The position numbers and the translations under genes were made by a program. From Deltaproteobacteria bacterium (GTDB lineage Bacteria; Desulfobacterota; Binatia; UBA9968; JAJDTQ01), in assembly GCA_026712905.1 (NCBI GenBank), contig JAPOPM010000223.1, positions 62,001-126,000 on the forward strand: a stretch of DNA of 64,000 nucleotides, given 5' to 3'. A model generated the notes under the pieces. That model was not told where the DNA came from. It worked only from the letters and a program-made list of their open reading frames with translations, and did no database searches. Shown one piece after another: positions 15,576 to 17,947 of the stretch; position 1 is the first letter of the stretch, and each line of letters begins with the position of its first letter.

Positions 15576-15917
15576 TCAGCTCAGCTTCCCCAGCCTCAGC
15601 GGCAGCCGGGTTCCCAGCCACAGCGACCTGTCGCGGTGGTCGCCCACGTGCTCGCCGGTGCTGGGGTGGATGAGAATGTCCAGGTCTTCGCGGTTGAGCA
15701 TGAGCCAGGAGACCACGTTGGCGAACTCGTCCGGGGTGAAGGCCACCTGGTACATGGCCTTGGGGTGGGGACCCACGGGAACGTCGTGCCAGCGGCCCAG
15801 GACGACGTCGAAACGGTCGCCGAGTCCTTCGCGTACACGCCCCGCCACCTCCCTGGTGTCACGGTCGTAGTAGACGTGGGCGTGATAGCCGGAGATTTCG
15901 GTTGCCTCTTGCGTCAT
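15576..15917 (-). CDS. DOPA 4,5-dioxygenase family protein
   Basis: A 113-residue protein of the DOPA 4,5-dioxygenase family, with the metal motif YHAHVYYD at residues 11-18 and the later GPHPKAMYQVAF and LDILIHPSTGEHVGDH segments. Fungal and bacterial members open catechol rings such as L-DOPA; many bacterial homologues have no assigned substrate. ATG 15917 starts ten residues inside the longest frame, where the conserved N-terminus begins. It lies 40 bases downstream of an intrinsic terminator and about 400 bases downstream of a strong minus-strand promoter, so its expression may depend on read-through of a structured leader. Confidence 0.85.
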   Translation of the reverse strand: MTQEATEISGYHAHVYYDRDTREVAGRVREGLGDRFDVVLGRWHDVPVGPHPKAMYQVAFTPDEFANVVSWLMLNREDLDILIHPSTGEHVGDHRDRSLWLGTRLPLRLGKLS

Positions 15918-15956
15918 GTTTCTGCCCCGATCATGTCTTGAACGCACCTCACATAG

Positions 15957-15988
15957 AAAAGCGGGCCCCCCTCCCGAGAAGAGCCCGC
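15957..15988 (-). terminator. intrinsic terminator or attenuator ahead of the DOPA-dioxygenase gene
   Basis: On the minus strand GCGGGC and GCCCGC pair around an inner CTC/GAG stem and are followed directly by TTTT. It would end a leftward transcript about 40 bases before the start codon at 15917. Read on the plus strand it has no T-run. Confidence 0.75.
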
Positions 15989-16149
15989 TCCCGGCGTTTA
16001 TCCACGCCGGTCGATGCGTGTCTTTTCTTGTCCGGCTCCCCGGCCGCGGGTTGCCTTCAACGAGCTTCCGGGATTGTGTCCTGTGCTGCCTTTTCCCCTC
16101 ACGTATTACGGCGTTAAAGCCGTGTTGTCCAACACCTGAGTCGGGACGG

Positions 16150-16242
16150 TCAGCCGGTAGCCGCCTTCGGCAAACCTCCGGGGAACCCCGCCTGCCCGCT
16201 CAAGAGCGGGCGTCCCGTGTCCGGCGGATTGTCTGTAGTCAT
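16150..16242 (-). CDS. putative 30-residue peptide
   Basis: A 30-codon ORF with an excellent ribosome-binding site (AGGAGG six bases before ATG 16242). The peptide begins MTTDNPPDTG and ends in a proline/glycine-rich, uncharged stretch closing GGLPKAATG. It is too short for standard gene calling. It sits inside a transcript unit with its own promoter and terminator. The stem GTCATC/GATGAC encloses the ribosome site and overlaps the ATG, so translation could be structure-controlled. It may be a leader peptide, a small regulatory protein or a modified-peptide precursor; no homologue is recognised. Confidence 0.5.
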   Translation of the reverse strand: MTTDNPPDTGRPLLSGQAGFPGGLPKAATG

Positions 16243-16330
16243 CCGACACCTCCTGGCGGTTTGATGACCGAGCCCGGAACCGTCGCGCGGGGTTTTCGGG
16301 CTCTTGTCCGTTCGCGAACCAGACAAGACG

Positions 16331-16359
16331 AGTCTAGGTCCGCTTCGAGTCGGTGTCAA
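16331..16359 (-). promoter_or_regulatory. strong sigma70-type promoter (leftward)
   Basis: On the minus strand TTGACA (16359-16354, perfect) and TAGACT (16336-16331) are separated by exactly 17 bases, with initiation expected near 16324. It drives the leader or small transcript toward the DOPA-dioxygenase-family gene and is divergent from the GMC oxidoreductase start at 16442. Confidence 0.7.
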
Positions 16360-16441
16360 GAAAAAAACGTGCACCGTTGAACGGCAACCGCGGAGTTGGT
16401 ACGGGAAAGAGATCAACGGCGCGGAACGGGAAAGGGATGTC

Positions 16442-17947
16442 ATGGCAAACGAATACGATGTGATTGTGGTAGGTGGCGGCTCGGCCGGCTGCGCGGCGGC
16501 GGCGCGTCTTTCGGAGGACCCGAACAGGAAGGTCCTGCTGCTGGAAGCGGGCCCCGATCCGCTGCCCATCCCCGAGTTGGTGGCCCAGGCCGCCGGGAGG
16601 GTGCGGCTCCTGCTGGAGACCCCCTACATCAACATGTATCCCTCGGAGCGCAGGGTCGACGGCAGCACCTTCTATTCCCTGGCCGGGAAGATCATGGGCG
16701 GCGGCTCCTCGGTGAACGTGATGTCGGTCATCCGTCCCATCAAGGCGGACATGGACGCGTGGGCGGCGGCGGGGAACCCTTCCTGGTCGTGGGAGCACGT
16801 CCTGCCAATCCTAAAGCGGCTCGAGAACGACCAGGACAATCCCGACAGTACCGACCACGGTCACGAGGGCCCGCTCTACTTCGAGCGCCATTACCTCTTC
16901 GGCCAGGAAGTCCCCAGAGCGGTGCAGGTCTTCATGGACGCGGCGCGGGAACTCGGGCTGCCGCGCGGCGATGTAAACGACCCGAATCCCTGGGGCCTGT
17001 GCACCTCGCCCTACAACATCAAGGAGGGCATGCGGCAGTCCACCACCGTGGCCTACCTGGACGCCGCCCGGGAGCGGTCCAATCTCACCGTCATCGCCGA
17101 GGCCCCCGTGGTTTCGCTTTCCATGTCGGGCAACCGCGTGACCGGAGTGAACTACGAGAAGGACGGCCAGCGGCACACGGCCGCGGGCACCGAGGTGGTG
17201 CTCACCGCCGGCGCGTTCCACAGCCCCCACATCATGATGATCTCGGGCATCGGACCGGCGGCGGAGCTGGAGCGGCACGGCATCGAGGTGCTTCACGACC
17301 GTCCCGGGGTGGGCGAGAACTACCAGGACCACGCCATGCTGCACATGGGCTTCGAGGGACGCGGCGGCTTCGACGTGGACTGGGTGGTGCCGCCCTTCCG
17401 GTTGATCACCAAGAGCGACCCGTCACGGGAGACCGGCGACTTCCACGTCTTCATGCGCCCGCCTACCGTGCTCGAGGGCGTGGGCCGGACGCTGAACATT
17501 TCCGCGGCGCTCCTGGAACAGCGCAACCGCGGCCGGGTCTTCCTCCAGAGCGCCGATCCCCACGAGCTGCCGGGAGTGGATGCGCGGATGCTGGAGCACC
17601 CTGGAGACATCGCGGCCGTGGTGTCGACCCTGGAGTTCCTGGACCTGCTGACCCAGACCGGCGACATGCCCGAGTTCTACGGCCCGCCGATCCAGCCCAA
17701 ACGCGGCGAGGACTGGGCGCGGTGGGCCCGCTCGACCCTCGACAGCTACCACCACGCCGCCGGCACCTGCCTCATGGGGCCGGCGTCCGACCCCATGACC
17801 GTAGTGGACGAGCAGTTGAGAGTCCACGGTATCGACAACCTGAGGGTTGCCGACGCCTCCATCATGCCCACGGTCACCCATGCCAACACCAACGTGACCT
17901 GCATGATGATCGGCGAACGGGTGGCGGATTTCATCAAGGGGAGCTAG
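16442..17947 (+). CDS. GMC family FAD-dependent oxidoreductase
   Basis: A 501-residue glucose-methanol-choline oxidoreductase. The FAD dinucleotide motif GGGSAGCAAAARL starts at residue 11, with a second GMC signature around GKIMGGGSSVNVM. The C-terminal active-site pair is present: His in SYHHAAGT and Asn in VTHANTNVT. These enzymes oxidise alcohols such as choline, polyethylene glycol or aromatic alcohols to aldehydes. ATG 16442 is preceded by a GA-rich site; the 46-residue longer reading crosses the promoter region and is rejected. The stop TAG (17945-17947) is the first part of an inserted repeat element, so the true C-terminus may have been altered. Confidence 0.93.
   Translation: MANEYDVIVVGGGSAGCAAAARLSEDPNRKVLLLEAGPDPLPIPELVAQAAGRVRLLLETPYINMYPSERRVDGSTFYSLAGKIMGGGSSVNVMSVIRPIKADMDAWAAAGNPSWSWEHVLPILKRLENDQDNPDSTDHGHEGPLYFERHYLFGQEVPRAVQVFMDAARELGLPRGDVNDPNPWGLCTSPYNIKEGMRQSTTVAYLDAARERSNLTVIAEAPVVSLSMSGNRVTGVNYEKDGQRHTAAGTEVVLTAGAFHSPHIMMISGIGPAAELERHGIEVLHDRPGVGENYQDHAMLHMGFEGRGGFDVDWVVPPFRLITKSDPSRETGDFHVFMRPPTVLEGVGRTLNISAALLEQRNRGRVFLQSADPHELPGVDARMLEHPGDIAAVVSTLEFLDLLTQTGDMPEFYGPPIQPKRGEDWARWARSTLDSYHHAAGTCLMGPASDPMTVVDEQLRVHGIDNLRVADASIMPTVTHANTNVTCMMIGERVADFIKGS

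Follow-up and report, generated by a model that had tools for sequence, protein, structure and literature searches.

Short proline-containing ORFs in the leaders of bacterial genes can control transcription through EF-P, as described for mgtL and mgtP of Salmonella, which act by attenuation in the leaders of mgtA and mgtCBR (PMC6460261). The locus described here has in common with them a long structured leader (264 nt in mgtA), a short proline-containing ORF and, if our model is right, regulation of whether transcription proceeds into the gene that follows. The likeness is functional: the downstream gene encodes a dioxygenase-family protein here and a Mg2+ transporter there, an intrinsic terminator follows here, and the prolines stand as PP-D plus a late P, whereas those of mgtL and mgtP are alternating or triple. 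Terminator-type riboswitches also place a conserved branched RNA arm 5' of an intrinsic terminator and an enzyme gene, but the present leader has no Rfam family, precedes one gene in one genus and carries a translated-looking ORF. SgrS/SgrT is a dual-function sRNA with a small ORF; its own promoter and terminator and a short ORF within a structured RNA recur here, in contrast, just 5' of a gene with no other visible promoter. Set beside these systems, the element fits an attenuator leader with a leader peptide, apparently restricted to a genus and without an Rfam family. Our best explanation, at a probability of about 50%, is a 5' leader of the dioxygenase gene that works as a transcription attenuator, with translation of the peptide as its likeliest sensor.

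The locus and its transcription signals

The window is a 64,000-nt contig stretch of a metagenome-assembled genome of Candidatus Binatia, the name borne by its close relatives. Within it, the leader is intergenic, lying between a GMC oxidoreductase gene on the plus strand and a DOPA 4,5-dioxygenase-family gene on the minus strand. Helices P1 to P6 and the terminator, listed here with the other features, belong to a consensus structure derived from an alignment of eight sequences.

16442-17947, plus strand: GMC oxidoreductase gene (PF00732/PF05199), divergent from the leader
15953-16359, minus strand: the whole leader, promoter to U-tract
16331..16359, minus strand: sigma-70-type promoter TTGACA-17-TAGACT, from a promoter scan, kept in 8/8 genomes
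16305..16325, minus strand: P1, 5' hairpin of palindromic sequence, GTTCGCGAAC, where the transcript is predicted to start
16270..16303, minus strand: P2, GAGCCCG/CGGGCUC hairpin; 95.5% of cells paired, with both partners changed at two pairs
16238..16268, minus strand: P3, GUCAUC/GAUGAC hairpin enclosing the Shine-Dalgarno AGGAGG and the start codon; nearly invariant in eight genomes
16207..16242, minus strand: the small ORF's 12 conserved codons, reading MTKNxPPDxxRP in relatives and MTTDNPPDTGRP in the window
16194..16211, minus strand: P4, GCCCGC/GCGGGC hairpin, with the stop of the relatives' small ORF in its loop region
16034..16188, minus strand: P5, long branched arm forming the RNA core, from the consensus fold of the alignment of eight
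16122..16153, minus strand: near-invariant 32-nt block CTGACCGTCCCGACTCNGGTGTTGGANAACAC within P5
15991..16010, minus strand: P6, CCGGCGU/ACGCCGG hairpin directly 5' of the terminator; 98.2% of cells paired
15953..15990, minus strand: intrinsic terminator, a hairpin of 13-14 pairs plus U-tract; 100% of cells paired in eight genomes
15576..15917, minus strand: DOPA 4,5-dioxygenase-family gene (113 aa; PF08883, E 3e-33), the likely regulated gene

The PF08883 match bears out the family that an earlier note, made from the letters of this DNA, had given to the downstream gene. Its product matches two putative dioxygenases of solved structure, 2peb and 2nyh. Among homologues with a characterised structure, 2NYH is the one reported as closest to the enzyme by which Gluconacetobacter diazotrophicus forms betalamic acid (PMC6426604), and a bacterial relative in the family converts L-DOPA to betalamic acid (PMC6426604). 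The GMC, TerB-like, NUDIX and TldD-like neighbours are all syntenic within the genus. Identity within the genus is higher for the divergent GMC oxidoreductase (86-96%) than for the adjoining dioxygenase (79-93%).

The leftward promoter that the note had read at 16359-16331 was recovered in our scan (1 found against 0.2 expected in shuffles), and its spacing is 17 or 18 across all eight leader-bearing genomes. No other promoter-like site was found in the window's leader region. Between the leader start and the aligned end just before the dioxygenase gene, the leader's own promoter was the only sigma-70-like site in 8/8 genomes, in a scan of a kind that promoters of other types would escape. The proposed intrinsic terminator likewise held up, with a hairpin at 15990-15961 (-23 kcal/mol) followed by TTTTCTAT. 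A simple terminator scan of the window missed it, probably because its G-rich flank allows the stem to extend by G-T pairing into the U-tract. From the U-tract to the ATG at 15917 we measured about 37 nt, where about 40 had been estimated, and this gap is about 28-44 nt across the eight genomes; the post-terminator stretch is of lower conservation and its length varies between lineages. So short a gap offers the dioxygenase gene little space for a promoter of its own. Given this gap and a single sigma-70-like promoter, the gene is probably transcribed by read-through past the terminator, the principle on which attenuators operate.

Structure, conservation and distribution of the leader

The 391 nt following the promoter have a predicted folding energy of -188 kcal/mol (z = -4.9), a value as low as which was reached by none of 100 shuffles; together with the consensus helices P1 to P6, this agrees with the several strong hairpins first described. 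In the consensus structure, 98.4% of 743 cells pair and five pairs change on both sides. Its covariation score of 0.121 compares with 0.040-0.052 when partners are slid and was reached in 0/500 shuffles, although the shuffles ignore relatedness, the structure comes from the same alignment and only about four lineages are represented. Hence the covariation analysis of homologous leaders, which had been suggested as a check, finds several covarying helices and lends moderate support. One pair of P1 varies as U-A, U-G or C-G among genomes. There is too little variation for covariation evidence in P3, whose stem is invariant, in P4 and in the hairpin GUGUU/AACAC. The helix CUUGUC/GGACAAG, which closes the leader's fold as predicted from the window, was rejected: the second lineage does not keep it.

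The P1 hairpin (16305-16325, minus strand) contains a 12-nt palindrome, CGTTCGCGAACG, in relatives, with one base changed in the window. It could double as a DNA operator. As a shared operator it was rejected: four genomes yielded no further good copy, and the one extra site, with three mismatches, was matched by no fewer in the control.

Eight of the nine genomes of the genus, the window's included, carry the leader, which BLAST found in 7/8 of the others at 70-93% identity. Each has one copy, always at the dioxygenase locus. Structure and sequence are both kept within the genus, and conservation in related genomes is what the earlier note had made its proposal depend on. The ninth genome (88% complete, 960 contigs) lacks both the leader and the neighbouring TerB-like gene, which makes the absence of the leader uninformative. 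Between the diverged lineages G001 and G006, P3 is identical at 31/32 positions and the core arm at 39/39, against 65% of 4-fold degenerate sites taken from four neighbouring genes. For the window against other lineages, the corresponding values are 28/32, 34-35/39 and 64-68%. The core arm and P3 evolve more slowly than 4-fold degenerate codon sites.

Searching 148 genomes of the class for the 32-nt core pattern with at most three mismatches gave nothing significant beyond the genus. A covariance model of the P5 core (R1) found only the eight genus copies in 35 genomes of the order and 145 of the class (stricter filters), and the leader was not detected in the approximately 140 other Binatia genomes searched. 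Nearly all genomes of the order (31/35) have the dioxygenase gene, and in other families of the order the regions upstream of it show no leader. From this distribution, the leader appears to be confined to the genus, which the dioxygenase gene is not. Candidate second copies were sought and rejected: there was none in the window's own genome, and 23-nt matches in G006 and G002 (L013, L014) looked like short chance similarities in otherwise unrelated surroundings. The 32-nt block had no exact counterpart in a viral collection.

The impression that no known RNA class is recognisable was confirmed by an Rfam 15 search, in which no family matched at its gathering score in the window; with permissive filters the leader gave just two matches, both at chance level. 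An identity as tmRNA or RNase P was rejected because both RNAs lie at other loci in three genus genomes, and 6S RNA because its Rfam model had no match anywhere in these. With that model the whole genomes G000, G001 and G004 yielded no 6S RNA, although tmRNA and RNase P were found. On the plus strand, a stop-free frame of 154 aa (15916-16380) runs antisense to the whole leader. We rejected it as a protein, since its frames shift among relatives and show no codon periodicity (57/139, 57/139, 54/135). In a partial literature collection, no paper coupled 'Binatia' with 'noncoding RNA'.

The small ORF

The AGGAGG (16254-16249) is enclosed by the GTCATC/GATGAC stem, as had been observed, and so is the ATG at 16242. 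The 30-codon ORF did not survive as a conserved unit: it is private to the window's genome, and in 7/7 relatives the frame ends after 12-13 codons. In the window it continues to 16150 owing to one extra base in the P4 loop, either a genuine insertion or an artefact of assembly. The relatives' frames read MTKNNPPDTGRPL, MTIDNPPDTGCPR, MTKNSPPDHERP, MTKTVPPDSERP or MTKSSPPDKERP and then stop. The stop codon, always in the P4 loop region, is TAA in one lineage, where it follows codon 13; elsewhere it is TGA and follows codon 12. The Shine-Dalgarno sequence and start codon are present in 8/8 genomes and the stop at 12-13 codons in 7/8. The proposed check on peptide conservation therefore has a divided outcome, in that a peptide of 12-13 residues is kept and one of 30 is not.

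Residues M1, T2, P6, P7, D8 and P12 of the peptide are invariant, with third-base changes in the codons of T2, P6 and P7. In-frame contrasts comprised 6 synonymous and 22 non-synonymous changes, whereas the other two frames gave 3/27 and 4/27. Because these overall coding contrasts are weak, translation of the 12-13-codon ORF into a peptide is likely, short of proven. Pro-Pro-Asp is a likely slow, EF-P-dependent translation motif. A simple Shine-Dalgarno scan of 71 regions upstream of other PF08883 genes found no PP-containing leader ORF.

An attenuator model and its rivals

The folded RNA of about 370 bases is probably an on/off switch for the dioxygenase-family gene. The sequence has the marks of an attenuator: a conserved short ORF led by a Shine-Dalgarno sequence, and an intrinsic terminator between this ORF and the gene. 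From these elements we infer transcription, termination, read-through, ribosome pausing and their coupling as follows. Transcription would start near 16325, the RNA would fold into several hairpins and most transcripts would end at the terminator (15990-15953). Some condition would let RNA polymerase continue past it into the dioxygenase gene. The likeliest sensor of that condition would be translation of the 12-13-codon leader peptide, with the ribosome starting in P3, slowing at PPD and ending in P4. Its position would decide which hairpins form, and P4 and P5 would fold differently before RNA polymerase has completed the terminator. A candidate antiterminator pairing between the 5' strand of P4 and the 5' arm of the terminator is good in the window's lineage and elsewhere scores no better than shuffles. 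This weighs against the model, as do the weak coding contrasts of the small ORF and the loss of its early stop in the window.

We regard a cis-acting attenuator leader of some kind as fairly likely, and the assignment of the sensing role to the leader peptide as tentative. A composite switch, in which a proline-pausing peptide and the branched core together sense either translation state (EF-P/Pro-tRNA) or an aromatic metabolite and so control an extradiol dioxygenase, is a more doubtful possibility.

The earlier note had allowed either a leader of the dioxygenase gene or an independent small gene or RNA, and the leader is the favoured of the two, given the short gap and the lack of any other promoter-like site. 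An independent dual-function RNA of about 370 nt encoding a small peptide, with a constitutive terminator and the gene living on leaky read-through, seems unlikely to us. Its own promoter, strong terminator and several conserved unpaired stretches would suit such an RNA, and leader RNAs can act in trans, the mgtCBR leader being an instance cited in PMC6460261. However, it always lies directly 5' of the same gene, within the same short range of gaps and with no other promoter-like site between, and it was never found at another locus. Since all the neighbours are syntenic, the association of leader and gene does not by itself separate these two readings.

The main mechanistic rival of peptide-sensing attenuation, beside the dual-function RNA, is a ligand-binding P5 core. 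As a metabolite-binding riboswitch, P5 with its 32-nt block would be an aptamer controlling the terminator, and the small ORF would be incidental or a means of tuning. A long structured leader with a terminator preceding an enzyme gene speaks for this reading, and the strongest sequence conservation lies in P5, at 39 of 39 positions between G001 and G006, rather than in the ORF. Yet the element precedes one gene in one genus only, matches no Rfam riboswitch and has a conserved Shine-Dalgarno sequence, start and stop that a riboswitch leaves unexplained, and we judge this reading improbable as well. Least probable by far is that the region is GC-rich intergenic DNA with a promoter and operator, its folding and similarity by-products of recent shared descent: such DNA folds readily, and one genus with some four lineages and several never-varying helices could mislead, but the conserved blocks evolve more slowly than 4-fold sites, the folding z-score is -4.9, there are compensatory changes and the covariation score exceeds every slid control.

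The phylum of these genomes is described as yet uncultured (PMC8262859). If the leader reading is true, the genus has a regulatory RNA family that is missing from Rfam and tied to a betalamic-acid-related enzyme family. It would also offer a compact setting, outside enterobacteria, in which to see whether a Pro-Pro-Asp peptide and a large structured arm can gate transcription. The narrow distribution of the leader suggests that a single genus can give rise to such elements and retain them, and that broad surveys would overlook these.
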